The translations under genes were made by a program, and so were the position numbers. The notes beneath the pieces were generated by a model. The model worked only from the letters and a program-made list of their open reading frames with translations. It ran no database searches and had not been told where the DNA came from. From positions 694,703 to 758,702 of the forward strand of contig RDEW01000027.1 in NCBI GenBank assembly GCA_011109175.1: a stretch of DNA of 64,000 nt. Direction: 5' to 3'. Shown one piece after another: positions 2,200-64,000 of this stretch. Source of the stretch: Dicyema japonicum. Its lineage: Eukaryota; Dicyemida; Rhombozoa; Dicyemidae. Each line of letters starts with the position of its first letter. The first letter of the stretch is position 1.

Positions 2200-3819
2200 A
2201 TGGATATTAGTCTGTTTCGAGAAGACTATGGAGGAAACCCAGAATTAATCAAAAAATGGCAGAGGAATCGTTTCAAGAGTGAATCCCTCGTGGATCAGGT
2301 CACATCGAATGACAAATTATGGAGGGACGGTATCTAATAACTCATTTCAAGCCCGCTACAAAATCGACAGATTAAATCGTGGAGTGAATATTTGCAGTAA
2401 AAGTTTTGCGATCTCCAAAAAAGTAAAAAATTATTTTTCCAACACAGAATCAAATCGCAACAGGAAATAGCGCTGACGACGTCTCACTCGACTTTTTGTC
2501 TCTTTCTGTGGATGAAGTGTCTGTAAATTTCGCTCATTTCACTCTCAGAAACTCTCTATGGATTCAATTAAGGATCTTTCTAAGAATTTAAGAAAAGAGA
2601 TAGAAAAACTAGAGACTTCGCTCAGTGAGTATGAGAGACTGAGGAACTCGGCTCTTTTTGAAATCGCAAACGACCTTGATCATCGAGTTGTCATTAGCAA
2701 CAATGAAGTTGTCCTATGGTTCACATGTAGGACGAAAACAAGTTAATCCGCGTTTCCGGTGACACTTCTTCCACTAAACTCCGTTCCCATATTGACCTCC
2801 TTGAAATGATCGGTGGAGTTGATTACGAAAGAGGTGCCTCAGTTGGAGGGAGTCGATGTTACTTTCTGAAGGTATACTTGCCGTGTAAATTCAGGGACCT
2901 GCTGTGTTTTTGGAAATCGCACTTATTCAGTATTGTCTCTTCTTCCTTAGAGTACGTGATTATATTGTGATGAAACCTCCGTATATGATGAAGAGGGAGG
3001 TCATGTCAGAGGTGGCTCAGCTGAGTCAGTTTGACGAGGAGTTGTACAAAGTTGTCTGCAAACGTGGTGCAGAGGAGGTTGAAGATTCTGACATTTCGTA
3101 CCTAATTGCGACTTCTGAGCAGCCTATTGCGGCCTATCATCGAAAAGAGTGGATCCCTGTGGAGAATCTGCCGATAAAATACGCGGGATTGTCCACCTGC
3201 TTTCGTCAGGAATGTGGAAGTCATGGGAGAGACACACGTGGGATATTTCGAGTTCATCAATTCGAGAAGGTGAATTGAACTTAGTATTATAGTAGATTGA
3301 ACAGTTCTGTTACACTTCACCAGGTGACGAGGAGTCCTCGAAGATGTTTGACCAGATGATCGGGACATCGGAGAAGTTCTACGAGTCCCTTGGCGTTGGT
3401 TTCCGCGTTGTGAGCATCGTTTCTGGTGATTTGCCTGATTGACGGGTAGGAGCCCTAAATAACGCTGCGGCTATAAAGTACGATCTTGAAGGTTGGTTTC
3501 CTGGGTCCAGAGCCTTCCGTGAGTTAGTCTCATGTTCCAACTGCACTGATTACCAGTCTAGGAGGCTGAACATTCGGTTTGGTGTCAGCAAAAATAATGA
3601 TAAGGTTATGTTGGCTGTTATCGTAGGCTGAGTTTGTTCATATGCTTAATAGTACGCTTTGTGCCACCACGAGGACTATTTGTGTAATTCTAGAAACTTG
3701 GCAGAGTGATGAGGGCATCAGAGTTCCTCCGGTCTTGGCTGATTTTATGCCTCCTGGTGAGATGTTTTTTTATTTGTGCAGATTTAAAGACTTTTATTCC
3801 ATTTGTCAAGAATAATTAA
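2200..3819 (+). CDS. SARS1: Seryl-tRNA synthetase, cytosolic type, 10 exons
   Basis: Charges tRNA-Ser with serine in the cytosol. The start ATG at 2200 opens [17 protein letters not shown], matching the N-terminus of animal SerRS. Nine introns of 22, 25, 26, 23, 23, 26, 24, 22 and 25 nt (2330-2351, 2423-2447, 2523-2548, 2708-2730, 2872-2894, 3270-3295, 3426-3449, 3605-3626, 3757-3781) restore one frame of 467 residues; human is about 514. The N-terminal tRNA-binding coiled coil is followed by the class II core: VMKPPYMM (motif 1 region), [16 protein letters not shown] (motif 2, about residues 293-308) and TRTICVILE (motif 3, about 428-436). The serine-site segment [12 protein letters not shown] is intact. 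The C-terminus, [15 protein letters not shown], lacks the lysine-rich tail of vertebrate SerRS. All introns are GT-AG and none exceeds 26 nt. No frame damage was seen; very likely functional. Confidence 0.95.
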
Positions 3820-4890
3820 TCTGAGATTATTATCGGATTTTTTTTAATTCATTTTTTTGTGTTAGCAGATTAGTGGAGAAAGGGAGTCATCTTTTGCAGT
3901 AATGCAATGGAATAGGGGGAGAGAATTCTTCTTTTTCAAGTTATTTTATTTCGTGCCGCTACATTTACATCTCTGAATGCAGACAATTATACGAGGCGGT
4001 GGGGTGCCTCTATTAGCAAGGGATAAAAATGCTAATCGGGATCACCTAACTAGTATGGATACTATTGCCTTCCTTCTTGGTGTTTCCTGGGTTATGTAAA
4101 TAAATAAAAATCTCTATAGGCCTCAACTTAAAACATTTACGCTTCTATTGACCATCTGTTTCCTTTTTATGAAAATATTTCAATCCAATTTTTGGATCTA
4201 TCTGTCTTATGTGATTTATAAAACATCTGGCCTCTTTGGCGATGTACGAAAACTAGCTGCGGAAAAACCTCAAAAATATTGAAATTTCAACATTCAATTA
4301 TTGGAATCATTCAGCCAGTAGAGAAGAATTTTTGGCATTATTCCCGGTGAAGGTTCAAACCCATGGAGAGGACATTGCTTGTGTCATACTTGAATACATG
4401 GAAACCAGATTCAAATCTTCCTCACGATATACGGGTCTATTTATTTGTGCGAGTAAGCGTTTTCACATATGAATTTGATCAAATCAAAATTAAGGAGTCA
4501 AATTACTGATTCAAATTTAGAATCTCGTCTTAAGTTAAAAATGAAAATTTATGCCCCAGACATAACACTATTGGCTAAGGAAATGCAGGGTCAATTAAAT
4601 ATAATTTTGTTGTGTTTTATTATTTTAAAAAGTGTTATGTTTTATTATTTAAAAAATGGCTCTTCAATTTTTTTAATTGCCGAAAAACAAAAAAAATGGC
4701 TTTTTGGCTTACAAGGTTGCCGACCCCTGGTATAGGGAATCATATATCTACAAGAACCAGATATCCGCTGGCTATTTGAGCTAATCTCCCTCGCCATCTT
4801 GAGAGGGAATAGCCACACAGTCACGGAGGCCGTTTTATGACTGTTTCTTTATTTTATTATTATTAAAAAACACTCCCGAGAAAAAATAAA
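3820..4890. other. AT-rich intergenic stretch with LINE 3' tail and a hairpin repeat
   Basis: No gene is visible. At about 4040-4110 there is a LINE-like 3' terminus (GGGATCACCTAACTAG followed by TAAATAAATAAA). At about 4765-4830 there is a copy of a dispersed repeat with complementary ends GGCTATT and AATAGCC, also found near 13170. Confidence 0.5.
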
Positions 4891-4891
4891 A

Positions 4892-5175
4892 TTAGTTAAG
4901 TCTCCATTGTGCCGCATTCCGAATCATCCTCTCCGTTAGCCTTGACCGTAATCTTCTGTTGCGGACTAGAGATCTAAGGTAATCCTGGTCGTCCGTCAAA
5001 GTTGGTCTCATACCAATCGCCGATAGGTCTTCAAGATAGTCAGAAGTGTCGTTCTTGGCCTTCCATGGAGTCCGGCTCCTGTGTGCAAAATAATTGCCCA
5101 TTGCGACATTTGCAGGTCATTTAGACGTAACACGTGACCAAAGATGCTCCACCTTGAATATAAAGTATCATCTGA
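4892..5175 (-). mobile_element. Type F non-LTR RT C-terminal fragment
   Basis: The minus strand encodes PANVAMGNYFAHRSRTPW. This aligns with PANVAMEEYF at about 40120 and APDNQAMESYF at about 52220, each preceded by a FGH(I/V)LR-like motif (FGHVLRLND here, in a neighbouring frame). This is the C-terminal region after the RT domain of some non-LTR elements. The copy is truncated and frameshifted. Confidence 0.6.
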
Positions 5176-6394
5176 CAGCATGCCGTATTTTCATTTATTA
5201 TAAAAATTTGCATTAGAGATCTTCATTGGCCAGTTGATCTTGATTTTATTTTAAGAAAAATAATTATGGAATTTTAAACTTTTTTCCCAGTTTTAGTGCA
5301 TTCTCCGTATCTTCTGAGTATCATACCCCGTATGCTCTGAATATGGTCTCTCTCTGTCTTTGAGTATCCTGTTTCCACTTAGAGAAAAATCGTACCGACG
5401 AAGTCATCCGAGAGATGTTCATCCTGTCGGCTAGTCAGAACCTCGAAACGTGGAATCTCCTCTCTGCTTGTTGAAATTTCTTCAACTATGAGTTTATCAA
5501 ACTATCCAAAGCCGCCGCAGGCGCACTTGGAGGATTTCACTACCGTCATGCCTCAGCCTATGCAGGGAGGTTCTTTGTACCCGCGCCACTTTCTCGTTAA
5601 TTGCCCATCAGCCACAGACCCCGAAATAATCATACGCCTCATCTCGGAGCGACGTTCCTAACGAACTATCCCGGTGAAGATCTCCAAGGCCAAACGCCCT
5701 GTCGCTTCGGAAGCCCTTTCCAATACGATCGAAGATACTCTCCGTACAAACGCAATACAGGACTGGGCGCGCCTACTCAGTTTTGCGCTTTCGAACTGAG
5801 ACTTATCGAGACAGTCGCGGAAAAAAGTCTCTCGCTGCCGCCATGAAGACCAACATTCGTTGTTTTTATAAGAAGAACCTGTATCCCCATTTGCCCCATA
5901 TCTTCTAACCATACACGGGAGATGCATAGTCCCAACAAGGAAGTTGAAGTGCTCCTTCTCAAATAAACTGTTCACTCAAAGTTGATCGAAGGTGGTACCC
6001 GCGCAGTCATCAGGGCACTTTCTTCAAGTGAACCGCGAAAATTGACTTTTGACGTCTAAAACATTTTGCTGAACAAGCATCCTTTGTCCCCCCACAACCT
6101 CGGCACAGTCGCTCCACAACCGGAGTGACTCCCCTGACTGCATCAAACAATGAAGTTCTCCCCGCAATACGGAATTTTGCCCTTACTAGCAGTGGTGGTA
6201 TCGACGGAGTAAGACCTGCCCAAAGATCTAACTTCTTTGTCCGTAGGAGACCCAAGACTTTGTCTTACGAATTTAATTACCTCACTTATGAACCAGATTC
6301 TGTCTAGAGTACTTCTAAAAGATTTGCCCAACACAACTTGATAGCCTTCGATAAGAAGGGCGGCGGAGTACGACCGGTTGCAGTCGGGTTTGTC

Positions 6395-6871
6395 TTCAAG
6401 AGGCTAGCTGCTAAAATTACCTCCAGACATTCTATTCCATTCGTCACACAATTCTAACCCATATCAAGTAGTCGTCGGTGTTCTCCTAGGATGCGAGGCC
6501 GCTGTCCAAACAATTAATGTCACGTTAAATGGAGTACCTATACCACAAAAGAAATTACAGAAGACACTGGGAGTAACTTTTGATACTTTCCTTTGCTTCT
6601 CAGCCCATGTGGAATCTATCATATCAACCTGTNTTCAAGAGGCTGGCTGCTAAAATTGCCTCCAGACATTCTATTCCATTCGTCACACAATTCTAACCCA
6701 TATCAAGTAGTCGTCGGTGTTCTCCTAGGATGCGAGGCTGCTGTCCAAACAATTGATGTCACGTTAAATGGAGTACCTATACCACAAAAGAAATTACAGA
6801 AGACACTGGGAGTAACTTTTGATACTTTCCTCTGCTTCTCAGCCCATGTGGAATCTATCATATCAACCTGT
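6395..6871. repeat. Duplicated contig ends around single N at 6633
   Basis: Bases 6395-6632 and 6634-6871 are near-identical with scattered substitutions. Likely an unmerged overlap. Confidence 0.85.
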
Positions 6872-7262
6872 GCAAAGAAGATCAATTTTGTAAAGGTCTT
6901 CCTTTGGAACTGTGGAGGAATTTATCCGCCAGGTATCGGGACCCTCTACAAGCAGTATGTCGAGCCAACAATAGGCTATGCATGTGCTGCATGGGGATCT
7001 AACCTGTCGGCAACGAACCTAACAAAAATTCAAGAGATCCAGTCAAAAGCAAAAAAATTACTGGACAAATATACAGACAAAGAAATTGCCCCCAGAGCAC
7101 TCGAGTCTATCATAGAGGCAACTGAAGGCAATTTCAGAAGAGGAAAGGAAAAAGACCCCCGTCCGTATAGAAAATGCGTGGGATCACGGTCGGAGCATCG
7201 AGAAAAAATGGCTTGATTATTGAGAGATGCCGGGATCACCTGAATATTAGTTATTGGTTAAG
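6478..7262 (+). mobile_element. Type A LINE 3' fragment inserted inside type B element
   Basis: The frame 6703-7216 encodes LQKTLGVTFDTFLCFSAHVE, LYKQYVEPTIGYACAAWGS and GSRSEHREKMA, the RT C-terminal region seen in the type A copies near 14.8 and 46.4 kb. It ends in the type A 3' signature GGGATCACCTGAATATTAG. On each side, type B coding resumes at the positions expected from the uninterrupted copy at 49.2 kb, so this is a nested insertion. The first 238 bases are duplicated across the N at 6633. Confidence 0.75.
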
Positions 7263-7859
7263 ACGGTGTTTTTTTGGCTTAAATAATAATAATGAGAACA
7301 TTCTAAACCGTAGTATAGAAGATTCTCGGGAGCATGTCCTTGTCAAACTAGACATCAAGAACATCTTCAATAGTCTAAGGAGAGATAATATCCTGGAGGC
7401 GTGTATTGAAAGATGCCCTAATATCTTCGAATTTGTGAATCTGTCCTACAGTCTACCATCATTCTCTCTTCGGGGACTATCTAATCCATTCGTCTTCCAG
7501 AGTGCAACAAGGAAATTTTCCTGAAACCCTGTTGTTCTGTCTCGCAATCGAAAAAATAATTTAACTTCCGCTCTCGTCCTTCAACATATAGTATCTGGAT
7601 GATGCGGTCCTTGGAGGACTCCCAGACACTGTCTTCCAAAATTTGGGGGTGATAATTCCATCTCTATCAGAAGCTGGACTGAAATTAAATTATGTAAATG
7701 AAAAATTGTGGACTTTCAGAAAAAAGTATTCAAAAACTGTGTCATCTATCGCGAATTATTTCCAAGCCAGACGAAGACATTATATTCCTCTGATCCCCAA
7801 TCAAAGAAGATATTATTCAACGTCCGGTTTGAGGATTACTCATGGAAGCAGGGCACACT

Positions 7860-8198
7860 GCCAGTAAAACTCGGAGGGCTTAGAATTTGCAACCCTGTAG
7901 ATATTTCTCTCCCTGCTTATCTCTCGTCTCTAATGGCCTGTAACACCCTTTTAAGAGGATTCTATACTCCCTCTCTGAATTCTCTACTGACCAGGAGGCC
8001 GGTCACTCTCCTGCAGAAAGAGTGCAGTNGCCAGTAAGACTCGGAGGGCTTAGAATTTGCAACTGTGTAGATATTTCTCTCCCTGCATATCTCTCGTCTC
8101 TAATGGCCTGTAACACCCTTTTAAGAGGATTCTATACTCCCTTTCTGAATTCTCTACTGACCAGGAGGCCGGTCACTCTCCTGCAGGAAGAGTGCAGT
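7860..8198. repeat. Duplicated contig ends around single N at 8029
   Basis: Bases 7860-8028 and 8030-8198 are near-identical (same LGGLRICN coding segment). Likely an unmerged overlap. Confidence 0.85.
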
Positions 8199-8400
8199 CA
8201 GATCTCCCAGATACATGGCCTTGAACGAAGTCATTAGGTGAGCTTTGGACGTCTTCGGAAACCCATTTATACTCGAACCAGTCAGTTTATGCAGGCATGA
8301 TGAGAAACGACTAGATGGGATGACTTTCTTCCCCTTTGAAGTCAGGAACGACTCAAGAATTTCAGCATCGCAGGCGTAAGGGAACTAGAAGTTTCAACCG

Positions 8401-9234
8401 CGAGCCGAACAAACAAAAAATCATTACCTTTTGTTTTATTTTTTATTAATAAATTTATTTTGTTTACTGTAAATAATTAATTAACACAGCCATTCATCCA
8501 AAGTGGACCCCGCCGACATTAATAAATCAATTTCAGTTTTGGCGCCATTTTATAATTGCTTTTTGTGGTGACTCGTAATTAATGTTTATACAGTTTTATA
8601 GCTGCAATAAAGTTTAATTAACTCTGATTTATTTTAATGAGATAAAAATGATTGTTTTTTAATCAATATGAAAAATATGTAAATTTTATCGATATTAAAT
8701 TCTAAACTGCATGGCAAAAGTGGAAATGGCAAAGCGGAATCTCAAATTAGTTAACTTTCCTGTTAAAAGTGGAATCTCACATTAGTTAACTTTTCTGGTT
8801 CCGTGGACATTGCTATTGATAATAAATAAATTCCAAAAATTCGCAAAAAGTGGATCAACTAATATTACTCAATATATAAGGTACCCTTCCTAGAGTCACA
8901 CATATTTTTCCAAAATAGCGTACTTGTATACTTTCCGCGCCATTAAATCGATCACTGGTCATACTTCTAGGAACATCCTGTCCCGTATTAGGTGACCTGG
9001 TTTGTGAAAATGGGAGATCTAACGGCCTATCCAGGAAATATATTCAGTATGACGTTTCTTAGGAAAAGTTCCGATAAAGAAAGACTTCTATTCATGATTC
9101 TGTGTCTTCTGGAATCTGTCCTTCCTTTATAAATAGTCCACATCGATTTACTGTAAGTAAAAGAATTCAGCACGTTTTGAAATATAAAGACCGCTTAAGA
9201 ATATGATTAAGTAACAGTATAGTTCATAAAATGT
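8401..9234. other. AT-rich intergenic stretch, nothing recognised
   Basis: Rich in A/T runs, with a short internal repeat (AAAGTGGAA...TCNCATTAGTTAACTT) at about 8727-8790. No coding signal was seen. Confidence 0.4.
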
Positions 9235-10583
9235 TCATTCAAAAGCTAAGCTTTGATTTCGTTTGGAAGAAAGAATGGAATCGATAGAATATTCGATCTT
9301 CCTCTTTTTCTTGGGATTTCCGAATCCATGGACACTTTCGTCCTGTGGTACAGTACATGAGATGAGAGAATCCCCCGACCTCGTGAAAGTATCGTTAACG
9401 GCATAAAATTCTGAAAGTTTGATCTTCTCGGTTTTGAAGAGTGAATTCAAGTCATTCATACCTTCAGTGGTATCCGGTCGGGAGTTCAGCGGATTTGAGA
9501 CCCTCTGAAATGTGTCCCAGTGGTTTTCTACTGAAAGTGTGCTCTCAGAAATTGTTGAGCGTATTTCTTGGTCTGCAAACTGGTCTGCATCGACAGAAAT
9601 GGTCGATTCGCTTGGAACAGATAGAGCACGGTATTTTTTGAGCACACGGTTCCTAAGAATCCTCAGATTCGGAAATTTATAAGTCAATAGATTTTTAAAA
9701 TTTTCCAGTGGTTCAACTTGAATTTCAAAAGTAAGAACAAAGTCGTCAGCAGAACAGAAGAACTTGACGATGTCACTAAATTTTAAATCTTGGGGCATTT
9801 CGTTACCACAAAAATATATCATGACCTTCAAATTAACGGTTATGCGAACCTTAACATTTGTACCAATGAAATACTTAAGACAAATGTGGTCTCTAAGGAT
9901 CTTGACAGGGGAGTTCGTGGGGTACATCAAAATGCCCTTAGATATCTAGTAAATTAGTTGTCATGAATCACATTTTCTTTAGATGTGGTTTTCACTGAGC
10001 TATAAAACACAGATTAAACGAAAAATAACTTTCTAAAGTAATACTTTACGCAAATCATCTGTTGGGCCGATCTCTGGCTCGCAACCAAGTTTCTCAGGGA
10101 AGTACTCATCCGTTCATGCCCTGCAATGACAATTAAGGATAACCTTCGATGTTGCGGTTTTCCCTGCTGCCTATGACAGTTTAAGAGAAAATTAACCTTC
10201 ACTTAAAATTTGGATAAAAGTCTTCAGTTTAGGATCTTCCCTAATATAAATCAACATTATGTACATTAGGGAATTTTCAAGAATGATGCAACCGCAGACT
10301 GGGCAATCCTTCGATGTTCGCAAATAGGTTCGAATACATTTGTCGCAAACTAAAACCAAATAACCAACAAACGCAAAAAACCGCATAGCATATCTTACTG
10401 AAAGCAAAAACCGCTGTAATCAGCATTACTGGCTATTGGGCGTTTGCAAAAAAGTAAATTTGTTAAATTCTTACAAGAATGATCGCAATCTGACGAAGAA
10501 ATTGGGTTTTCCATGATTTCTTTGCAAATTGAACAAGCCACGAGGTCCCGCATAGAACGAAAAAACAAGCAGTCAGGATTCAT
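9235..10583 (-). CDS. Polycomb group RING finger protein (PCGF type), RING + RAWUL
   Basis: PCGF proteins partner RING1 in PRC1 complexes that ubiquitinate histone H2A in the nucleus. Exon 1 (10583-10475) encodes ACSICKEIMENP, and joining across the 125-nt intron 10474-10350 gives CDHSFCDKCIRTYL then TSKDCPVCG, a complete C3HC4 RING. The downstream sequence YIREDPKLKTFIQIL matches the helix after the PCGF RING (BMI1 NIRSDKTLQDIVYKL). Exons after 9958 encode a RAWUL-like ubiquitin fold (VKILRDHICLKYF...VMIYFCGNEMPQDLKFSDIV). The C-terminus carries NPKKKRKIEY, a classical nuclear localisation signal. Remaining proposed introns are 26, 23, 30, 26 and 24 nt, giving 364 residues. The linker exons (about 10200-9990) are not fixed by homology and could be wrong. 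The RING and RAWUL assignments are firm; which PCGF paralogue it is remains open. Confidence 0.85.
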
Positions 10584-10599
10584 TACACGAATGCCGCGC

Positions 10600-40375: not shown

Positions 40376-42583
40376 CTAATCATCAATGTCACGTGTTAAA
40401 TCTACTTTGTTGAATGAATTTTTGTCGACACATCCTCTTAACCCCGTAAGAAATACTTGAGGCTTCGGCACATTTGAATTTCCATCTCCTTTTGTTTGTA
40501 CTCCAAATTCCCTGTTTTATGATTTAAAGTAAATTTAACTTTGGCGGGTAAACCTGAGTACAATTTTCCCTCTTCATATGACTTTTATTAGTTTGACAAG
40601 ATTTAGTTATCTTGGTCCGTAGATTAGCCTAATATCTTTCATGACTACCCATACCAGCTTGATTGCCTGTCGTCTCATCTCCCACTCATTCCACTGATAG
40701 TTTGGATCTATGTGACTTTCCTGCATGTGAAGTTCTGTCTGCATTCCATAATCGCAAGTCCGCTTTGTTGTAAACATGTTAGTCTAAGAATAAAGCATAG
40801 ATAAAACATCAAAGGAGGAATCAACAACTTCAAAGGACTGTTGCAAGTCAAGTAAGCTTATCAGTTCTGGATTTCTATAAGCGATATTTAATATTTTTAG
40901 TAAATTTCTAATTTTTATAAATCATTTTTACTCATTTATGTTTTCGTTGAATTCCACTGCGTTGTTCCTGTCAGAGAAAGCCAAGTATAGGTTTTTATAC
41001 GCGACTAATCCCAGCTTAGAGTTTGCAGGGATCAATAATCCGTTGTATTTCACAAAATTATTTGCACAAAACCCCTTTATTTAAATTTACGTTTATGCCT
41101 GCAAATAAACTTGAAATTTGTTGTAATTTGGATCATCTGGCCTTACCACTCTATATTTACTGACAAATTGAGGTTGTCCGATCAACTCATGTTCCCTCGG
41201 AGTCTTGAAATATTAAAGTGCATAATTACTTTTAATCGTTCTTCGTTTGTTAACTTTTTTATATTTTTTGTTAAATTTATAATTTTTTCGTTCGTGGTAG
41301 AGCTACAGAACTAATAAATTTTTAAATCCGTCACAACTTCGACAAATTGCTTTAGGTTGGTAAATATATTATTCTGTAAATCCAAAATTATCAGCTCTTC
41401 TTGAAATGCTTTCCAAAAATGATAAATGGAGTAAAATTGGGGCTTCGAAATAACCATGAAAGTACGTAAACTTGGCCAGTTGGCACGGCAGACTTGTCTT
41501 GTATGGTATTTCTTAGTATTTCCATGGTAGTTTTGAATTGCTGATATAAGTCAGTCATTTCCCTAGCAGAGTTTGACATGTCATTCTCAGTTAGTGTTTA
41601 CGTTATACCAGTAATAAACTTAAATATATTTCATATTGGCGACAGTTCACAATGACGTCCCGTAAAGGAAGTGTGCCTTCATCATCTGATTCGTTGGTTC
41701 TATTCAACTCCTCAAAGAACGCTATTAATCGTATAATTGTACTAACATGTAACTATGTCGCACGTGTCAACTGTCGATTTGATTTCTTTCTGGATTTCGC
41801 CCATCGCTGACTCAACCAATGTGAAGAACATTGCAGGGACTGGGAGTTCTAGTAAAACTGATACCATTTTCTATGGATTTCCCGCCTTTTCCACAATCCT
41901 TGTTGAATATTCTGATCCCACCTACAATGGCTGAGAGCTCCTGAAGGTGCTTAATTTTGTCAGCTTTCTTCATTTTTGTAAAATTGTTCAGTTCTGACTC
42001 AGAAAACACGCTTTGTAGAGCAGCTTTAAAATAAACACAAAATCAACCCGTGCTTTCTCTTAAAACTTGAATTTCCGTGATTCCTCCGAGTCCAGAGACC
42101 AGGATTGTGGCAGAAACGATTTTTCTGTATAGATGATTGAGTTCCTCAGTGTTCCGAGCTCTGCTATCTACGATCTCCTGAAAAATTGGCTGAGTTTTAG
42201 ACTTGAGCACATTACTATGTTCGGCAATGAACTCATCTTTAGTAAATAAGCACATGAAACCCTTTTGGCTGTAATTCGAGTCAAAATAGACTTGCATTTT
42301 AATGGTGTCCAATGAAATAGAATTTTCTGCACTAAGCCTATCAACACACAACTGTGAGGTCATCACTTTTATACTACCTCTATTATCTGTTTGACGTCTG
42401 TATTATTGAGTACATTGCTGAACTGATTGTCAGGGTTCATCACTGTTGATTTGACCTGAATATGTAATATTGTGATACCATAAATGCTGCCAATTCCTCA
42501 CTTACAGTGATCATGTTTGCACTGCAGTTTTGGCATATTTGCCTGATTATATCCCTTATTATACTTTCAGTTCTTATAGACAT
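40376..42583 (-). CDS. CFAP206: CFAP206, cilia- and flagella-associated protein, 16 exons
   Basis: CFAP206 is an axonemal protein linked to radial spoke and central-pair function in motile cilia. ATG at 42583-42581 opens MSIRTESIIRDIIRQI, matching the family N-terminus. Fifteen introns of 22-28 nt (23, 26, 24, 24, 25, 22, 23, 23, 24, 26, 24, 24, 24, 26, 28) give 613 residues against about 622 in human. Diagnostic blocks, in order: SLDTIKMQVYFDSNYSQK, ELNHLYRKIVSATILVSGLG, GIRIFNKDCGKGGKSIEN, KSAVPTGQVYPQFYS, GFCANNFVKYNGLLIPAN, YQWNEWEMRRQAIKLANLR, CTQVYPPK, PKPQVFLTGLRG and VDLTRDID, then stop TAG at 40378-40376. The intron at 41098-41075 is GC-AG; homology fixes its ends. The ninth intron (near 41325) could be 24 or 27 nt. 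All exons join in frame, so the gene looks functional. Confidence 0.95.
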
Positions 42584-46905: not shown

Positions 46906-48269
46906 ATGTTTCTCGAAGAGCACTTTAATGAAGAAGGTTACTCGTGCATTTCCTCCCTATGGGGGATATCTACTAATGTAATAAATACATGTGACTCACA
47001 GGTGCCGTTGACAGTTGCTTATAAGACTGCGAGGCTGACTCAGAAATACTGTGAGTCTTCTTTAACTGCCACTAAGGCTTTTCTGGCCCAACTAGACAGC
47101 TATAATCGCAGTGGAAACCTCTCTGATATTATCGGGGACCTCGAGAAGCTTCAAAAGAAGTTCGAATCTATGGCAAAGCTGGTTTGTTACCTTTCATCAA
47201 ATAGATCGAAAAAGAAACCCCTATACTCAGCAACCTTTTGGATGTCACCCAGGAAAGACTTGCCAAAATGGACACAGCGACCAACAACTTGCTGAAAAAT
47301 CGGGATTTCCAGTCTATGGAAAGTTTGAGTGAACCGCATATCAACAGATTGATCCTCGACTATCTTCTTCGCTCTGGTTGCTACGAAAGTGCCATAATGT
47401 TCTCCAAAGATTTCAACCTCAATGTAACTCTTGAGGTCATTTTAGGGAGAACTCGACCAGATATTTCTCGAGGCGATGAGGCCCATTGATAATCTCCTTC
47501 AATCTGGGGATTTGGAGCGCTGCATTGCCTGGTGTGACGAAAATAAGTCTTCAAAGGTACCCCATTTGGTCATTTCAGTCTGATTTGCTGTACAAACTTC
47601 GAAGACAGGAGCTGATTCAGTTAATGTTGAAGGGACAGTACACTGCGGCCGTAGAGTTTGCTACTTTCTCAAAGTAGATACGTGAAGAAGCACCTTAAGG
47701 ATAATTTGGTAAAGGAAATGGCCGATATCAAGAACCTTTTGGCTATTATAATATCTCCACGTGGAAAGCAGTCTCAGGTTTTGCCAAAAGACTACTTTTG
47801 TAGGAGTTGATTACGAAGGCTGACTGGGGATCTTTGGCGGAGTCATTCCGCAGTGATTTTGTAAACTCATTGTCTGGGCTCACCGTATCTCCCTTCTTGG
47901 TGGCAGCGGAATGCGGGATCTCAGCCTTTAAGACACCGTAATTGCTCAATTTACCTTAGTTTGTGCTTCCCCGGTATCTCCAAAAGCTGTCCTCACTGCG
48001 ATGCTGATATTTTTAGCGTGGGAATTTCTCTTCCGTTCGCGGAATACAACTTTTCTCGTCTCAGATGCCCCTATGAGGGGGAGAACATAGATGATAAGAA
48101 TGTCCCGTATGTTTTGCCAAATGGACACGTTTATGGAATTAATGTACCCAGTAGGCTCTATTTTAAGGCACTGAAGAAGATTGCGAGTTTAAATGATGGC
48201 CGCATTGTATGCGTCTTTACTGGCATGGAATTCAAGTTCAAGGAGGCTGTTAGAATTTTCGCTACATGA
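46906..48269 (+). CDS. MAEA: MAEA/GID9-type subunit of the CTLH (GID) E3 ubiquitin ligase, 9 exons
   Basis: Catalytic RING-type subunit of the CTLH complex, which ubiquitinates regulatory proteins in nucleus and cytoplasm. ATG 46906 is the first in frame after TAA at 46891. Introns of 24, 23, 22, 22, 22, 26, 22 and 24 nt give 392 residues (human 396). An N-terminal helical region leads to a LisH segment (HINRLILDYLLRSGCYESA), CTLH (LDQIFLEAMRPIDNLLQSGD, then LERCIAWCDENKSSK) and a CRA-like part (ELITKADWGSLAESFRSDF). The C-terminal GID/RING-like domain has CPHCDADI and RCPYEGENIDDKNVPYVLP followed by NGHVYG. The first (46978-47001) and last introns are 24 nt without an in-frame stop, so retention would add eight residues instead of breaking the protein. 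Intact; high confidence in family. Confidence 0.95.
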
Positions 48270-52095: not shown

Positions 52096-52099
52096 GATC

Positions 52100-53382: not shown

Positions 53383-53955
53383 ATGACAGAGGATATTCTG
53401 GATAAACTCAAAGAAACGGAAACTTCTGAAATCATTAGGACAGGTCATGAATACGCCACAGAAATAGAATATTCAAACTCGTTCGTTTAGTAAAATAATA
53501 GAAAGAGAAATTCGGTTTAGTACAATGATAGAAAGAGTGTGTGAAATATTCAAAGATTATGATTTGCATAAAGAATACATTGGATGGAGAAGGTTCAGAC
53601 CTGGGAAGAGTGAAACAATGCAGGCAATGCAAAATCTATTGTTTGATTTTGTATTTACTTAAGAAAGCGAAATGTGTCAGTCAATTTGGGCATTCCGGAA
53701 GCTCTCTGGAATAATACAATTCGTGAAATAGCTGCTCTTCGTGTTGATGTAATATTTGATGATAGACTAGTGTATTTCCATGGTAAATGAATATGAAGAA
53801 GAAATATACATTTGGTACAAATACCACAGAAATGAAGACTTGGCTGAATATATTTGTAGAAATATTATTTTGGTCGGAGAGGACTTTTGTATTAACAATA
53901 TATCATTTTAGCCTGTCTTTACGAAAAACTAAAGAAGATCACTGATCCTAAATAA
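53383..53955 (+). CDS. Unrecognised 152-residue protein, six exons with 22-23 nt introns
   Basis: I do not recognise this protein. A model with introns of 23, 23, 23, 22 and 23 nt (53485-53507, 53515-53537, 53641-53663, 53749-53770, 53889-53911) yields one frame from ATG 53383 to TAA 53953: MTEDILDKLKETETSEIIRT ... WRRFRPGKSETMQAMQNLL ... NLGIPEALWNNTIREIAALR ... MVNEYEEEIYIWYKYHRNED ... SCLYEKLKKITDPK. Predicted mostly helical, charged, no signal peptide or membrane span. The first two introns are near-copies of each other separated by a 7-nt exon, so that part is uncertain. The later exons are well supported by the coding look of all pieces and by matching splice lengths. It lies between two degraded type D copies. 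Confidence 0.6.
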
Positions 53956-54985: not shown

Positions 54986-54989
54986 TAAG

Positions 54990-55330: not shown

Positions 55331-57120
55331 GATTTTAACACTTTATAATTCTAATTTATTGTTTCTTAACTAAAAATAAATCACTTTCTGAGAGTATTCA
55401 TTGTTGTTAGTCTCTCTCGCCGCGTGATATCACAGGGTTACAAAGTAAATAGTATACAAAGGATATGTCAGGAAATCGTAAATTTCCGTCGAATTTTAGG
55501 GGGTCGACTTATACACCGGCAAATACGATGATTTAAGGTGAGCCTAGAATGACATGATGACTCTCCCATAACATTGGGCTTGATCATGAGGGGTAACTGC
55601 CATTCATATCATGTTGTTAAGATTTAATAGCCACTAGTAAACAAATCGTATTATGGTTACTTAGTAAGGAAGAGAGTTCGTAATTTTGAGCAGTTTCCAC
55701 CACTAGCGGGTGACCAGAATGAAATATATGATAATTAGAGAACGAGGTCACTTGGGGTATTCGTGCTGAATTAAATTATTCCAAAGACCAAGGGTAAAAC
55801 CAAACTAATTTCTTGATCCTGACACGTTGATCCAGAGAGCGAGCGTAGTCCTGGCAGCTGAGGTCGATTCCAGAACTCGTCTCCAGGAAGCGAAATTGTC
55901 TCCCGGTCGAATGAATAGATTGATCCTTTTGAATTCCGGCCAGGCATTGGGTGTCACGCGGCGTTCTCAGTTTTAATATTATTATTAACAACAAAATCGA
56001 ATCATATAAGAAAAATTCTATTTGTGCTGCGTCTGGATGATATTCGATACTAGTCTCTCCCACCCTCTCACTACTGAGGTATATTTAATATTATAAACTT
56101 GAAGGTACTTTGAAAGTTCTCAAAGTCAATTTTTAACCTGCATCTAATTTTACCTTTTAGATAATAAACCAGTTATTAAAATGTATAAATCTCTTCAGAA
56201 TGACTACTTGGATGATTTTATAAAGAGTTCGATAGATAGTCTACGTTAACTCATTACTGACTTTTTTGATGGACCAATATTTTGATTCACATATTTTGAT
56301 TGAGGTAAAATTAACCTAAGAGCCTTCATGATTTCGCGAATTTTCTTAGGGATTTTTGCATTTAGCGGTATTTATTTTATTAAAGAAACACTAAGACCAC
56401 AGAAAAAGCAGTCAAAGCTAACTAATTAAATGATCCTAGCTTCTAATAAGTCCCGGATTCTCCTCTAGTAATCCCCGGCGATCCCATAGCTTTCTGAAAG
56501 TGTTTCCCGACAATTCTGCAAAGAAATTCGATCGGGGTCATTCAGGACTGATCAAGATTCCTCCGTATCGATAACTCTCCTCCAAATGGGTATCTGGCTC
56601 TTTTGAAAGTTTTACTACTAAAAATAACTTATCATAAAGACATTAATTTTTAAGGAAATTCTACTTTATCGAAACTTTTTAATTTTTAAAATTATATACG
56701 ACGTCATTGGATTCACTAAACTCAAAAGATCTGAACCCTGCCGGCATCCAAAAAAGATCCCTCTCTTCCCTAATCCAGTGAAGGGATTCTCATTATGGCG
56801 GATATACATGGACATAATAGTGAGAAAAGATGCATTCCACTCCAATCGGGAAACTGAATAAATCATGTTTCAGGTAAATAATTTGGACGGTCTCATAGTG
56901 AGACCTAATTTCCTGCAATAATTTATATGGAGATGGGACCTATTAGTCATCCCTTTCACGTCTGTCTTTCTGGCTATTAACGATTCAATTCAAGTAGGAA
57001 AACGAGGAAGTTTGCGTTAATCAACTCCAAAGTTTCTACCGTGATAGACCTCAAAAGAACTATCTTCCGAGCAATGACTCGAATAAATGGGGTATTAAAA
57101 GCAAAAAACATTCATGCAAA
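55331..57120. other. Region without a supported gene
   Basis: Contains scattered repeat scraps: the GGCCAGGCATTGGGTGTC block at about 55940, and GGATCTTTTTTGG in inverse at about 56750. Nothing coding could be defended. Confidence 0.35.
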
Positions 57121-57126
57121 GACAAG

Positions 57127-58571
57127 TCATGCAAAAAGCGGTAATATTGAGGAATATTCACAATCCTCGAAAAGATAAGAGACTCTTCTAATCTCATCGA
57201 TAATCAAATCAGCTCCATCATCACTAATCATATATGACACATTGAATGTCTTTATATATGGGTCCTGAATACAAATACGTGACAACTTGGATAAAAAATA
57301 TGGCATACACTGAACTCTCCCGCAGTCTTATCCCCCAACGATCCCGACAAATCGCGGCAAAACGCATCCGAAGGTACCACATAACCATTCGATGAGAGAA
57401 ACACTTTGTCAAAGTTCTGACCCGACCAGAATCTGAAAAACGCAGAAATCATATCCACTAAAGTTTCAAAAACCAAAAACTGGTAGACAGATCTGAAGGT
57501 CCTCTCACCGCCATCAATGTGTCCAAGGAAGGAACTCCGCATAGCCAGCCGTCCACAACCACGGTCTCTTCTGCGTATTAGATTAAAAAAACGTGATATT
57601 TCTAGCAGCTCAGAGGGAGTAGGGAAGCTACGACCCACCGAAGCCGGCAAATTTGAATGGAAGAGGGGTATCAGAATCATTAGATTAACAATGTAGGAGT
57701 TCATAAACACACACTTGAATAGAGGTTGTTTGAACCACTGACGAATCAAGATTGATGCATCTCTGAACCCCCTCGAGTAGTTGACGTATAACGCGAAAAG
57801 CTGAGAGTTAAGGATCCCCATTCTGATAATCAGATACCACAAACTTGTTATTGAAAGACAGGTCGACATTTGTGGATGGAAATTTCCGAAGACGGAAGGT
57901 CAGAATAGGCATCCGAGCGTATTTGATGGCGACAATATTCTTAAAAACATTGGAGCCACGAAGGAATTTAGTTACCTCGTCGAAGAAGTTCATACCCTCC
58001 CTAATCTGCAATAATGAGGAAAAAGCACCAGAGTCACGTCAATATCGCATTTTTTACAGGCAAATCCAGCCACGAAGGAACCGAACGGAACCAAACGACC
58101 GAAAAAGCTAAGCTGTTCTCCCAGGATTCCGATTATTTGCTGACATTCCTTGTAGTTAGCACTGTCAATGATAGTTTTGGTTATGATATACTGGATCTGA
58201 CTGAAATAAAGGTCAAAACCAACCTCTCCACAGTTGTAAGATCTTCGGGGATCGTAAATACATTTGGGGTCGACTTTGAGAACCGACATTTGGCACGTGT
58301 TATATTTAGATTTTTTCCATTTAGGGTTATAGTGTAGGGATATTGTAGCATTTTTTCCACGCTGCTTCGACTCTTGAAGGTCAGGAAAGCCTCCGTGTTC
58401 TGAATATATCGACACAGGACAAACCCGATGTATTTTGCAAGACATGATCTCTCCGAAAGACCTTAAACCTGAAATGAGGTCTTCAGGCTTTGTTTTGGGT
58501 TTAAATCCTGAAATATGAATGACAAATTTGCTGTTTCTTTGTTTTTCAGAATTGTGCCCTCGAGGAATCAT
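57127..58571 (-). CDS. Non-canonical poly(A)/poly(U) polymerase, MTPAP/TUT1 type, with N-terminal RRM-like domain
   Basis: A template-independent nucleotidyltransferase that adds A or U to RNA 3' ends. ATG at 58571; introns of 25, 23, 23, 22 and 23 nt give 442 residues. Residues about 14-88 form an RRM-like fold (KFVIHISGFKPKTKPEDLIS ... EAFLTFKSRSSVEKML). The catalytic domain has PFGSFVAGF (146-154), CDIDV with D160/D162 as metal ligands, ARMPILTFR and VDLSFNN with D212. PAP-associated helices follow (RDASILIRQWFK, MNSYIVNLMILI, FRFWSGQNFDKVFLSSNGY). The end is CIQDPYIKTFNVSYMIS. The C-D-[IL]-D wording and spacing fit MTPAP and TUT1 best. I cannot decide mitochondrial versus nuclear, and no clear transit peptide was seen. 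All catalytic residues are intact. Confidence 0.88.
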
Positions 58572-58699
58572 AAGAACAACCAAAGTTTATTTTTTGAATT
58601 GCAAGAGTAATTTATTTTTAAAATAAACAAAGATTATTTTTATAATAAAATACATATATAAATTAAAGAATAAAAGTCAGGCGAAACTAAAGGTTTCTA

Positions 58700-59520
58700 G
58701 TAGAGGTGTTGACTTCTCTTTTTGAAAATATGTCTTTTTTTGCGATTGATTACCCGTTGTCCATTCTCCCTCGGTACTTTCAACATTCGAGGTTTGAAGT
58801 TAATTACCAAAACATCAACTTGGACATGATATATCAATTCATGGGGTCAGTATTTGCTGTCTTCAAGAAATGAAAATTACCGCATATTCTATTACTAAAT
58901 TGGATGATTATTATATAATTTTTTGGACTCTGATTTTCGACATTAAGGTGTTGGATTTTCTGTCATGGAGATCTTTATGACCTTGTGACGCATGTATGGG
59001 CTCTCTTGGTTAGTATTGCAGTCATGCAACTCCGTCATCTCTATCATCAATGTCTATGCTTAGACCGCTGCCTATGTCAATGCCGACCCTGAAGATCTCG
59101 GCGAGATCTACTCATGCTTGACTGGCACAATGACTCACTTTCGTTATCATTTCTGACGTGGAGATTGGAATGCCAGAGTTGGTAAGGTGCGGAATGAGGA
59201 TGCTTGTATTGAATAGCATGTTGGGAACCGTCGAAGTTCCTCTGATGTTTCATTATTTTAATTCTACAAATCCTCTGACGATCTGCAAGGAAATGCGATT
59301 AATAAGCCAGCTCCTTTCTCTTATCTTTCTTCCTTACTTCGATACGGTTCAGCAGAATCAGTGATCTGGTTCCTATAAGTACTGATGTTTCCACACCGAG
59401 TTGCTCAAAGATGAGCTGTCCAACGAGACATTCATATTTCTTCTTCCTTTGAATCTTTTGACCTTCAATCATATCGGTTGTAGTCAGAAGGAAGGTCATA
59501 CAATGTAGGCTAAGCAATAT
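58700..59520 (+). mobile_element. LINE APE endonuclease remnant
   Basis: Across shifting frames: GTFNIRGLK (about 58772), SVINVYAQTAAYVNADPEDL (about 59032-59095) and RGDWNARVGKVRNEDACIE (about 59155-59208). These are consecutive endonuclease motifs (GTxNIRGL, NVYAPT-like, GDxNARVG). It occupies the spacer between the divergently oriented poly(A) polymerase and the next gene. Confidence 0.7.
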
Positions 59521-59985
59521 AGACCCCCTTGAGAATAGCCAAAAATTTCCCTTTAATGAAAAAACATCTATTTTAACGTGTTTTATTTTTTTAATTTATT
59601 GAACTAAAAACACCGTCTTAACCGGAACGAAAAAATTTAGGTGATCTCGGCCTTCCTCAGCAGTCTTCGCATGCTCGGACTTGAAGGAAGTGTTTTCCAG
59701 GGGGAATTCTTCTGCATGGTTGTTGACTAATGGTCCTTTTTGGATATAATTTAGGATTATATCTGTCGCAACCAGATATGGTAAGCCACATGACGCACAC
59801 TAAAAATTCAAGCTCCCTGGAGCTAAAAAAGGAGAAGAAGAACAGAAGAATCAAACAAATTAATTAATAAAAAAAACTTCTTCAAAAAATAGTTTAATTA
59901 AACTGATAACTTAATTAACTAAAAATATTTTATTAATTTTAGAATATTTTGAATAGACTTTCGGGCTTTAAATTAGTGTTGTGTG
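59521..59985. other. AT-rich spacer with inverted LINE tail
   Basis: At about 59590-59655 there is sequence resembling an inverted LINE 3' terminus. No gene was seen. Confidence 0.3.
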
Positions 59986-59988
59986 GCA

Positions 59989-61449
59989 ATGAACGGAGAT
60001 ACAAACGCTATTACAGTAGGGGAAATAAGGGAGAAACTCTATCCTTTTGAGGAATTTTTCACAGTCAATGGTCTCAAGGAGTTATTTGACGCCATAATAA
60101 ATATACCTAAGGAGCACACAATTACACATGACGAATACACGAGATTCAAAGAACTGGAAAAAGCAAAAGCCCTGGTATTTGACATTGATTTCGTCGACCC
60201 AGAAATCTCCAGACAAGTAGAAATTCGCAAAGATGATGACCTTAATTACGACTTGGACGACTTGATGTATTTCAGTTTTTTATTCCAGTGAAATTTCCGA
60301 AGAGTTGAAGAAGACTGTGAAAACCAAACTTGAGTGCATTGCAGAGAAAAAGGAACTCGTACAAGAAGCGTAAATTTAATTAATTTTATTTCAGAAATAA
60401 TTTAAATCCGTTAAATAATAAAATTGAAAAATATAAAAATTGTGAAAAGTTAAACTTGGAGGTATTGTGTTTTTTAATTTAAGAATTTAAAAAATCGTTT
60501 TGACGAATTTTCATTCTCATTGGCGAACCTTTTAGACGAATGGCCGGTAAATCAATTTATGGACTTCCTCTGTGAATTTGCGGAAACACAGACTGAGGAC
60601 CTTCAAAAATTGAAGGAATCGTTAAAAATTGTATCAATAGATGAAGTAACATAGATTATCAAGAAACCTGCTCTTCTTTGTCCAGGAGAACTGGCGAGAT
60701 TCGAGTCTGTGAGTTCCAGGTTTTGATTTGCTGATTTAAGTCACCAGGTTATGTCAGATTATTCACAAAAATTCCCAATGGGAGCTTGATTGTGAAGCCT
60801 TGAAGGCTCAACTCAAATTTATGAAGAAATTTGATGTGACTTTTCCGGAATTAGTGGACACTCAGTCCATTCTGTCAAATGAGGATGTCGACGAAATCCT
60901 CACGGGGTACTCTATAAGTAAAACTGACTCGATTATTACTGAATTTACTGACTTATACAACACCCTTCAACGGTCATGTTCAGAAAAGGTCGATTATTAT
61001 GCCAATTTGGTTGAGTTGGGGTTATTTTGAGGCTTTGGGAGTTTTAGAGAGAACGGTTGAGGCCAATTTGGAAGAGATTTTTAAATCCGTTGAGATGTAT
61101 TTTGACTTTTTCGAGACCACCATCAAAACGTGGTCAAATTCTCAAACCTGACCATCGAAATTGTCGACCGTAAGCTGAAGACATGTGATGAAGTTCAATC
61201 TGAGGGAATACGGATTATGGGAGAGAAAGAGATTGGTGGAGAAGCTAAACGAGAAGGCAATAGTTTAGCTGTGGAAAAAGTTGATGGGTATTGTTCATTT
61301 TGATATATAGTACTGCGGTTATGGATGTTGTGAAGAAGACGTGTGACATTGAAAGGAGGAGTAAGCTGAGGTTACGGAGATCTGAGTTAGATGCGAAGAT
61401 AAGCTGTATTATGTCCATTATTGACTCTAAACTAAAAGACTTTTTGTAG
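59989..61449 (+). CDS. Unrecognised helical/coiled-coil-like protein, at least eight exons
   Basis: I do not recognise the family. From ATG 59989, introns of 22, 25, 22, 24, 28, 22 and 23 nt join exons such as EKLYPFEEFFTVNGLKELFD, ISEELKKTVKTKLECIAEKK, NRFDEFSFSLANLLDEWPVN, LDCEALKAQLKFMKKFDVTF, DSIITEFTDLYNTLQRSCSE and VVKKTCDIERRSKLRLRRSE, ending at TAG 61447. It would be about 420-430 residues, acidic at the N-terminus and strongly helical with Lys/Glu-rich repeats. One phase change near 61110-61150 is not explained: the summed exons miss a multiple of three by exactly the amount of one more 23- or 26-nt intron or a 1-base indel. Structure elsewhere is consistent. Confidence 0.6.
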
Positions 61450-61639
61450 TAAGTCACTTAATTTTTATTTTTCATTGAAATGAGTGTTTTGTAGAAAATT
61501 TATTTTTAGCGGTATTTTTGTTTAAAAAAATAAAGGATATTGATTAGAATTTTGGGGGATATGTTTCAAGGGTGAATTATCGCTATAAAGAAGATTCCTT
61601 CTCTTATCTGTGGGATTATTCGAGATATGACATACTGTC

Positions 61640-61800
61640 TACGACGATGCTTCGGAGACTAACAGGAAGTTGTGGAAACCCCTATAGTGGAGTGGGCGAG
61701 AGCAAATGATCCTTTTCCGCACCAGTCTGGCACTGGACGCCACTTGAGATATGTGGTTCACATGAGGAGTCTACTAGGAAAGGAAAGAGGAGGAATAGAC
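61640..61800 (-). repeat. Dispersed repeat E copy
   Basis: Reverse complement of GAAACCCCTATAGTGGAGTGG ... GCAAATGATCCTTTTCC ... CAGTCTGGCACTGGACGCCA matches the repeat at 37.9-38.3 kb in order and spacing. Confidence 0.65.
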
Positions 61801-61854
61801 AAAACAAACAGAAATCTTTAACCAATTAGGCACATGGAGAACGCCCGACTCGCA

Positions 61855-62230
61855 AGAATTAATTTATTTTATTAACCCCTAAGAAGATAAAAGTTATCGT
61901 CTAATTAAGTGATCCCGGTGTCCATACCAGTCGTTTTCCTGCGGTTACTTTGGAGTCCTGGATTAATCTCCACCGCGGGGAAGGTTTCTTCTCATATCTC
62001 GGGCAGGCGTCCATGTATAGTTTGATGTCCTGCCAGAAAGGATGGTCAGGGGACTTTGCCATCTTGAAGAAGTCCCGGTGAAGTTCCGTAATGTATATCG
62101 TGATTGGAGGAAGTTTAGTGTTCTACAAAGTAACGAAGTAAACGTCCTTTTCGACGATCTCAATAGTATTCTGAGAAATCGATTTTGTAAAACTTCCAAC
62201 TTGCTCTACAAAATATTTGTATTATAGCTC
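61855..62230 (-). mobile_element. Type A-like LINE 3'-end fragment
   Basis: The minus frame reads LQNRFLRILLRSSKRTFTSL, a close relative of QNRYFRILLRSSKKASTSLL at 27.36 kb. It then ends in the shared terminus GGGATCACTTAATTAGACGATAAC ... TAAATAA (about 61915-61860). Confidence 0.75.
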
Positions 62231-62383
62231 TAACGATGGGCGGAAAATATTTCCGACTTACAAGAAGAGACTGAAAGATTTATAAACTTGGGAAAAATAA
62301 ATTAATTTTTGATAAAAATAAAAAAAAACATTATTTAAAATATACTAAAATATTTTTAAAAAAAATTTATTGCTAAGAAATTA

Positions 62384-64000
62384 ATGGATGATCCTGGAAA
62401 AGAGTCACTCTTAAATCTTATAAAAGAACATCAAATAACCTTCGAATCAGACATTCGAAGTCTTCAGTCCACTAGCAGCGACACAGTTCCATCTTACTTA
62501 CTATTTAAGGAAAAACTTGCTCTTTACGAAAGGCATAATAAAGATTTGACTGAACAAAACCAATTCTTAGTGTCACTTTGCTGTGAATTGCAGGAAAACT
62601 GCACTTCTCTTAACAAAAATGCAATTAGCAGCGAAAATAAGTTTATGTATGTTTTATGAAAGCCACCACTCGATGCAGGAAAAAATCAAAATTCTAACAC
62701 AAGAAAACCAAGTATATGAGAACAAAATTCTTTTCATGGGGAACGAGTACCAGGCACTCAGAGAAATGTATGAAAAAAAAGTGGACGAAGTAAAATTTTA
62801 GTCACGTAGGTCGCCCATTTGAAAGAAAATAAAAACGACCAAGAAAACTGTGGACTTGAAGCTTCAAATTTCAAATCAAGAAGATTCAGCGAAGAGGTTT
62901 AAGTTCTTTATAGCCGGCAGTGGCTTATTGATCACTTAGAAGAGACTGAGGATAAAAAGGGGAACATTGAACGTTGGTTAGAGAGCTCAACCTTGGTGGA
63001 TCAAAAACCGACTCGAGATTTATATAACGAAAACAACCGACTGTTACAGCAGGTTTGATGTTTTGGTGAATTTTTGCAGATTCAAACCATCACTGAGGAC
63101 CAGGCTAAGACACGTGACCAGTGTGATGAGTTGAAGACACAACTTTCTCGTCAAATTGAGGAAAACTCTCTTAAACAATCCATCATTGAAAGCAAAGAAA
63201 ATCTGCTTAGAAGTATAAATGACGAGATCTCTGCACTTCGTCAGCATATAGACACTCTAAATGGACAAATTGGCTCCCTACAACAATCCGAGGCCAACTT
63301 ATTCCGTGAAAATGCCGTTCTGCGCACTCAAATGACCAGTAACTCAGAAAACATGCAAGAATTCTTCAACGTCAAAGAGGAGGTTCATAAACATTTAATG
63401 GGCTTTAGATCGAAGAGAGGAACGAAGTCATCCAAAAATTAGTGGACGAACTGGACAAAACTCGTGGGCTTGCTAGACAGATGAGAGGAGTCATTGATAA
63501 AAAGGACGAAGAGATCTCTTCCTTGAATAGCAGAAACAACCGTCTTCACTCTGAGTACAGCCAAAAGATTCAATCTGTTGAGATTTTATTTATTTTGACA
63601 GATTGAGGACAGTATTCCAACAAAAATGGAGAGAGAGGAAAGCGTGGAGGAGGCTTGCCGACCTTTGAGGACCGACAATGCCGTGTTGAGACAAACAATG
63701 ACCAAGTTGGTTACAGAAAATAAAAAATTGTGCGACAAAATCGATACCTTAGACAAGGATGTTGACTCCTGGCGGGCCAAATGCAAAGGACAGCATCAAA
63801 AGGTAAAAATACTTTCCAAGTCCTTAGATGGAAGAGATTGTGGAGAGTGTGTCAGTCATGAGCTATAATTTGAAGGTTGCCAATGAAAAGGTTTCCACAA
63901 TGACCGTAGAAGTAGTCAAAAGGCTTAGTAACCTAGATTGGCATGAAAAATGAACAATTTGATACTCTAGCGTACGAACTGAAGGAATCCCGCTCAAAAA
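62384..64000 (+). CDS. Long coiled-coil protein, 5' part, runs off the window
   Basis: ATG 62384 opens MDDPGKESLLNLIKEHQITF. Proposed introns: 28 nt (62649-62676), one of 20 or 29 nt near 62800, then 24, 27, 26, 25, 25 and 25 nt. Joined exons are almost entirely coiled coil: LFKEKLALYERHNKDLTEQN, EKIKILTQENQVYENKILFM, ERWLESSTLVDQKPTRDLYN, QIEENSLKQSIIESKENLLR, EISALRQHIDTLNGQIGSLQ, RNEVIQKLVDELDKTRGLAR, AVLRQTMTKLVTENKKLCDK and KNEQFDTLAYELKESRSK at the edge. Hydrophobic heptads and Gln/Glu/Lys richness suggest a structural or centrosomal/ciliary protein, but no family motif identifies it. About 480 residues are visible. Confidence 0.7.

Follow-up and report, generated by a model that had tools for sequence, protein, structure and literature searches.

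How are introns of some two dozen nucleotides (nt) recognised by a spliceosome? The question is raised by a stretch of 64,000 nt from Dicyema japonicum (GenBank assembly GCA_011109175.1, contig RDEW01000027.1, positions 694,703 to 758,702 of the forward strand), here called the window, whose positions are counted from its first letter and whose guanine plus cytosine (GC) content is about 38%. The initial annotation, made from the letters alone, had proposed about 60 introns, nearly all of 22-28 nt, in eight host genes, among them those for the cytosolic seryl-tRNA synthetase SARS1, for CFAP206 and for an MAEA-like protein. Judged from the genomic sequence, the segments in the window qualify as genuine U2-type spliceosomal introns, and we consider it probable (roughly 70%) that they are dicyemid introns recognised via the exon side of the 5' splice site by U1 and a LUC7L3-type protein, via their length, their U/A-richness and the first AG, and via commitment by U5.

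GT-AG segments of about 24 nt in the window and on other contigs

Proteins were placed on the DNA with a local spliced aligner that allows three intron phases, accepts GT-AG boundaries only and applies a flat length range of 15-200 nt with no further splice-site model. The first-round queries were octopus seryl-tRNA synthetase (SerRS) for SARS1, CFAP206 of Lineus and one MAEA chain, which we take to be human. All 30 introns of this first alignment of the three window genes are 19-36 nt long, nine lying in SARS1 (22-32 nt), fifteen in CFAP206 (19-36 nt) and six in MAEA (22-33 nt). When the alignment was redone with every boundary dinucleotide pair and a length range of 15-100 nt, GT-AG ranked first of 256 pairs in each of the three genes, scoring 1209 versus 1107, 1194 versus 1055 and 303 versus 274 for the runner-up pair. 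Disallowing an intron together with its overlaps costs between 3 and 170 score units. Most junctions recur with other queries: eight of nine in SARS1 with all four proteins used there, and 11 of 15 in CFAP206 with all five. Long alternatives of 63, 140 and 178 nt appear at weakly conserved spots of CFAP206, with single queries only.

SARS1 (2200..3819, + strand) encodes 467 amino acids (aa) across nine introns of 22-26 nt, located by spliced alignment at 2330-2351, 2423-2447, 2523-2548 (2517-2548 with one of the four queries), 2708-2730, 2872-2894, 3270-3295, 3426-3449, 3605-3626 and 3757-3781. Once spliced, the gene reads as a single 467-aa protein with a terminal stop, while the unspliced frame holds 37 stops in 1620 bases; an earlier model of 474 aa matched a cytosolic SerRS chain with E = 4.9e-158. 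No placement of the species could be read from a SARS1 tree, in which its end branch is long (1.62). CFAP206 (40376..42583, - strand; 608 aa; Pfam FAP206, E = 3.7e-48) contains fifteen introns of 23-36 nt in the spliced alignment, which in + coordinates lie at 42456-42478, 42352-42377, 42237-42260, 42024-42047, 41840-41864, 41722-41746, 41586-41608, 41443-41465, 41311-41334, 41204-41229, 41075-41110, 40908-40931, 40784-40807, 40629-40654 and 40512-40539. The sixth of these is weakly supported (three of five queries), yet the frame stays open with its removal, and for 41311-41334 one query gives a 27-nt alternative. The top CFAP206 match, P0121, was rejected as a close relative, since it is 40% identical and represents a duplicated gene model. 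For the MAEA-like CTLH protein (46906..48269, + strand, 408 aa) six ab initio introns are placed at 47182-47204, 47424-47445 or 47436-47460, 47557-47578, 47656-47677, 47778-47803 and 47938-47959; the first was found ab initio only, and the boundary of the second is ambiguous. Residues 135-406 of this model match the MAEA chain with E = 1.8e-30, and a search of a large protein database with MAEA returned nothing at E <= 0.001.

The search was extended to the whole assembly (64,672,829 bases, 191 contigs). Human PRP8 aligns to one contig (L045) over residues 689-1558 and about 1600-2333 with 755/863 and 592/729 identities, so that the spliced parts are 81-87% identical to human, and 25 introns of 20-25 nt interrupt them. 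On the reverse strand of this contig, at about 5290, the PRP8 frame shifts by one base within a short run of T, which probably reflects a sequencing or assembly error. U2AF2 contains introns of 22, 23, 68 and 22 nt, and both queries placed introns of 23 and 22 nt in a LUC7 gene, which lies on yet another contig.

From these alignments we curated 57 introns (nine from SARS1, 14 from CFAP206, five from MAEA, 25 from PRP8, four from U2AF2). Beforehand, a 20-nt segment of PRP8 (frame slip), a weak 19-nt segment of CFAP206 and a 33-nt segment of MAEA, for which an insertion is equally possible, were excluded; the 24-nt CFAP206 intron 42237-42260 and the last SARS1 intron (support of 4-10 and 8-16, respectively) were retained despite their weakness. 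The 25-nt CFAP206 intron 41722-41746 and the two LUC7L3-type introns, one of which has G at position +5, are not among the 57. All 57 are homology-supported GT-AG introns with a median of 24 nt, and 54 measure 22-28 nt, the outliers being 20 nt (PRP8), 36 nt (CFAP206) and 68 nt (U2AF2). Their lengths fall into the three classes modulo three with 22, 20 and 15 introns. In a plain comparison, introns divisible by three contain in-frame stops more often than the others (13/15 versus 16/42, p = 0.002), but this count does not exceed what composition yields (11.6 in shuffles); selection for stop codons in such introns, as known from Paramecium, is thus unsupported once composition is controlled. 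The GC content of the introns differs strongly by gene, amounting to 2-6% in PRP8 interiors, 23% in CFAP206 and 32-37% in SARS1, MAEA and U2AF2.

One might suspect that a permissive spliced alignment merely patches pseudogenes, frameshifts or assembly errors. One 20-nt PRP8 "intron" indeed turned out to compensate a one-base frame slip at a homopolymer and was dropped, and assembly joins bear duplicated ends. Nevertheless, the recurrence of the junctions with independent queries, the narrow length peak under flat priors and the close identity of the spliced PRP8 parts to human render such an artefact scarcely credible.

Gene models built ab initio with a flat intron range of 18-40 nt contain 54 introns in seven host genes of the window, 41 of them at 22-28 nt, and four more in a CNPY-like gene, which comes near the total originally proposed. 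A peak at 22-28 nt rises above background even when no splice-site model is used and 16-80 nt are allowed, many of the 490 calls being false; such wide-range runs over-predict introns in repeats and are usable only to show the length peak. That nearly all introns measure 22-28 nt is borne out by the curated set under the flat 15-200 nt range. As to their spread over 2200-64000, introns are present in the host genes, whereas 10.6-40.4 kilobases (kb) gave a single reverse-transcriptase-like ab initio model. The claim of genome-wide use agrees with PRP8, U2AF2 and the two LUC7L3-type introns on other contigs, and the suspected dicyemid origin is strongly suggested by intron size, by the ciliary gene CFAP206 and by the long SARS1 branch. 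SARS1 reads as one continuous protein, and the 608 aa of CFAP206 compare with 624-641 aa in the five relatives used, but the length of the putative poly(A) polymerase, for which there are weak matches only, was not confirmed.

Signals at the splice sites and the splicing machinery

At the donor sites of the 57 introns, G occupies position +5 in four cases and GTRAG occurs once, positions +3 to +8 being A/T-rich. On the exon side, -2A is present in 63% and -1G in 61%, and AG stands immediately upstream of GT in 22/57, with 3.7 expected from exon composition. For discrimination, 55 introns of 20-28 nt were compared with 237 size-matched exonic GT-AG decoys. Within this comparison +5G is rarer in introns (4/55) than at decoy GTs (50/237; Fisher p = 0.019), and the area under the receiver operating characteristic curve (AUC) reaches 0.89 for the T fraction, 0.85 for A+T, 0.73 for exon-side U1 pairing and 0.63 for intron-side U1 pairing (0.59 without PRP8). 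Donor and acceptor weights together attain 0.93, with leave-one-out applied to the real introns only. AG is over-represented at the end of the upstream exon, and on its intron side the 5' splice site shows A/T-richness only rather than a U1-pairing consensus; complementarity of +3 to +6 to U1, a usual rather than a defining U2-type signal, is missing.

A U2-complementary branch motif scores no better in the introns than in composition-shuffled versions (3.59 versus 3.54; the value was equally high in 103 of 300 shuffles). In 52/57 introns the first AG at a distance of at least 19 nt is the acceptor, and in 46/57 the very first AG of all. Restricting the length from 20-200 to 20-28 nt lowers the number of exonic GT-AG decoys per real intron from 83 to 4.3. 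The introns are distinguished by U/A-richness, length and the first AG. With hardly any +5G, no detectable branch consensus and no separate pyrimidine tract, their recognition looks as unusual as had been presumed.

The core machinery, as far as family and RNA matches tell, looks ordinary. Among the small nuclear RNAs (snRNAs), U2 gave 25 matches in the assembly (22 above cut-off), U1 11 (none above), U6 ten (nine above) and U5 15 (all above). The U1 5' end ACUUACCUG is found in seven of eight loci read out of the 11 matches, the remaining one showing a single change; U2 carries GUAGUA in 8/8 loci read of the 25, U6 ACAGAGA in 8/8 of the ten and U5 a canonical loop in 6/6 of the 15. Prp8 and SF1-HH family matches are present, as is a zf-U1 match (U1-C family), though the control for the latter also matched in E. 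coli. The U2AF large subunit stays below the curated cut-off exon by exon, but matches a U2AF65 chain with E = 8.4e-54. A single U12 snRNA (85.4 bits, cut-off 53) lies at G000:C68:163471-163599 (L048); this RNA of the minor spliceosome keeps an intact branch-pairing region in a genome of introns of about 24 nt. The U12-type donor GTATCC occurs in 0/57 introns, and a scan of 233,635 bases for U12-type donor and branch sequences (RTATCC, CCTTAAC) gave two matches of no clear meaning.

Alternatively, the segments could be internal DNA pieces excised from DNA, like the internal eliminated sequences of ciliates, rather than spliced from RNA. Dicyemids are reported to eliminate chromatin, Paramecium has eliminated sequences of 26-28 nt, and the segments are known here from genomic sequence alone. 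We regard this explanation as very improbable, however, in view of the first rank of GT-AG ends among 256 pairs, the AG frequently preceding GT, the presence of U1, U2, U5, U6 and U12 RNAs, and the fact that published dicyemid introns derive from a comparison of genomic and complementary DNA (PMC2222250).

A search with PF03194 revealed one LUC7 gene in the assembly. Its alignment to LUC7L3 scores 517 (108/228 identical) and thereby exceeds that to LUC7L (score 315, 76/239), both comparison sequences being presumably human, and its sole strong match in the PDB is yeast Luc7. LUC7L/LUC7L2 was not found in this one search of a possibly incomplete assembly, for which a BUSCO value of 76% is reported (D. 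japonicum, PMC6736024), and this absence is the weakest link of our interpretation. A LUC7L3-type protein as the sole LUC7 found is a likely reason for the exon-side sites, a connection apparently unpublished for dicyemids.

We envisage that U1 would first hold the exon side (AG|GU), aided by the LUC7L3-type protein. The intron would be recognised as a single unit (intron definition), bounded by the permitted length and by U/A-richness, and the first AG some 20 or more nt downstream would serve as acceptor. For U2, almost any A would suffice as branch point provided that its context is A/U, and the 5' splice site would be committed by pairing of U5 loop 1 with the exon rather than by U6 pairing with +4/+5. 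The reduction in decoys brought about by the length window may explain why other signals could decay. More tentatively, and as a possibility on which we would not insist, this animal might have lost the intron-side (U6/LUC7L2-type) 5' code together with LUC7L/LUC7L2 while keeping the LUC7L3/U5-type code and a fixed length, independently of ciliates; such a joint loss would mean that ultra-short introns and the loss of LUC7L/LUC7L2 may be mechanistically linked.

The same introns could have lost their intron-side consensus merely because a fast-evolving parasite drifted towards AT, in which case the LUC7 set would be coincidental or incompletely assembled. The intron interior contains only 8.8% G, so that the 7% of +5G equals background; the low GC content of PRP8 intron interiors, the long branch of the SARS1 protein and the possible incompleteness of the assembly (PMC6736024) fit as well. 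Yet -1G and -2A are retained under the same AT pressure, which suggests one-sided selection, and the sole LUC7 found is of the exon-side type, the same pairing being described for Paramecium bursaria (PMC12862383). We therefore deem drift alone unlikely, albeit an explanation to be taken seriously.

Several further points weigh against exon-side recognition of genuine short introns as proposed here. General AT drift could erase +5G with no change of factors, and LUC7L/LUC7L2 may lie in an assembly gap or may be a divergent gene that was overlooked. A weight matrix of +3 to +6 reaches an AUC of 0.79 via A/T-richness, meaning that the intron side is still informative and only the usual consensus is gone. 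PRP8 contributes 25 of the 57 introns; +5G is found in 3/30 of the other introns of 20-28 nt. Longer introns exist (36 and 68 nt), and the LUC7 alignment also proposes introns of 24/36, 80 and 18 nt in poorly conserved stretches, which were not counted. The introns are known here from genomic DNA, and the best U1 match (69.0 bits) falls just short of the Rfam cut-off of 69.5. Finally, a PF05971 (METTL16 family) match is present, so that no loss of the U6 methylation route is visible and loss of METTL16 as the cause is disfavoured; its orthology is unproven, and the family matches bacteria and an archaeon as well.

Further genes and features of the window

A CNPY-like gene (DUF3456; 53383..53955, + strand; Pfam PF11938, E = 2.5e-18) was modelled ab initio with introns of 31, 23, 22 and 23 nt and lies outside the four genes that the initial annotation had named. 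The ab initio model of a poly(A) polymerase/terminal uridylyltransferase-like gene (57127..58571, - strand, ends uncertain) has introns of 23, 37 and 23 nt, matches PF22600 with E = 4.5e-10 and shows a weak PDB match (E = 0.033). Two further ab initio models on the + strand gave no usable family match: one of 422 aa at 59989..61449 (introns of 22, 25, 22, 24, 28, 29, 19 and 23 nt) and a coiled-coil-like one of 464 aa at 62384..63953 (28, 20, 24, 27, 26, 25 and 25 nt). A RING-like ab initio model at 9235..10583 (- strand) contains poorly supported introns of 18-39 nt; it has no Pfam match and a weak RING match (E = 0.11).

Broken, reverse-transcriptase-bearing regions resembling retrotransposons were recognised by eye at about 5.3-8.5, 14.4-16.7, 17.5-19.8, 26-27.5 and 48.7-51.3 kb. 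The window also contains ten single-N positions (1666, 6633, 8029, 15870, 30856, 35457, 36068, 38102, 50793 and 54710), all of them within tandem duplications of two nearly identical copies (period about 120-270 bases). These are probably contig joins with unmerged overlapping ends whose gaps were collapsed to one N, and the tandem repeats of the window would then be partly artefacts.

Comparison with known systems

Tiny introns with weak signals are already known from dicyemids. Published values are a mean of 26.2 +/- 1.9 nt (n = 16; PMC2222250, 2007) and a median of 27 nt (PMC6543705, 2019), and the introns described here agree with this published size of 26-27 nt; the mean of 38.2 nt given by Lu et al. 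(PMC6736024, 2019) lies above our median. For 41 introns of Dicyema acuticephalum, PMC2483917 (2008) reports that their 5' boundary is the weakest known (0.5 bits) and that they show no signature of a branch point, contrasts dicyemids with intron-poor species and likens them to Paramecium and a nucleomorph; on account of this report the weak boundary and the missing branch signature, like intron size, count as established. We find both again in a further assembly, where the exon side has escaped this weakening. The present genome contributes a candidate reason for these introns: among the matches listed, the dicyemid literature on introns and splicing deals with neither LUC7 nor snRNAs nor the exonic part of the 5' site, and no search paired dicyemids with LUC7.

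Two classes of 5' splice sites are distinguished in PMC11732430, a U5-type AG//GU and a U6-type //GURAG. According to that work, sites that pair strongly with U6 are used less when LUC7L/LUC7L2 is disrupted, while knockdown of LUC7L3 has this effect on sites pairing strongly with U5 loop 1. The sites studied here resemble the LUC7L3-dependent AG//GU class. Complex eukaryotes have both, whereas essentially one class is left in the 57 introns, and the assembly still has a METTL16-family match. Little or no usable pyrimidine tract is likewise found in human short introns whose splicing involves SPF45/RBM17 (PMC8363638) or SMU1/RED (cited in PMC12862383), although the human model intron measures 56 nt.

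The closest likeness is to Paramecium bursaria, for which a 2026 paper (PMC12862383) describes an exon-only consensus with LUC7L not found and LUC7L3 kept. Both organisms share ultra-short introns, a -2/-1 consensus that is kept, the absence of a +3 to +6 consensus, and a LUC7L3-type gene with no LUC7L found, here in one search of a possibly incomplete assembly. They differ in that the ciliates considered there are without reported U11/U12 small nuclear ribonucleoprotein, whereas U12 RNA is present here. The animal may thus represent a phylogenetically independent case of the Paramecium bursaria pattern. If the pattern is true in both and arose independently, one could test whether loss of a LUC7 paralogue is a cause or a consequence of ultra-short introns, and dicyemids and orthonectids, whose introns have a median of 57 nt (PMC6543705), offer a natural comparison.

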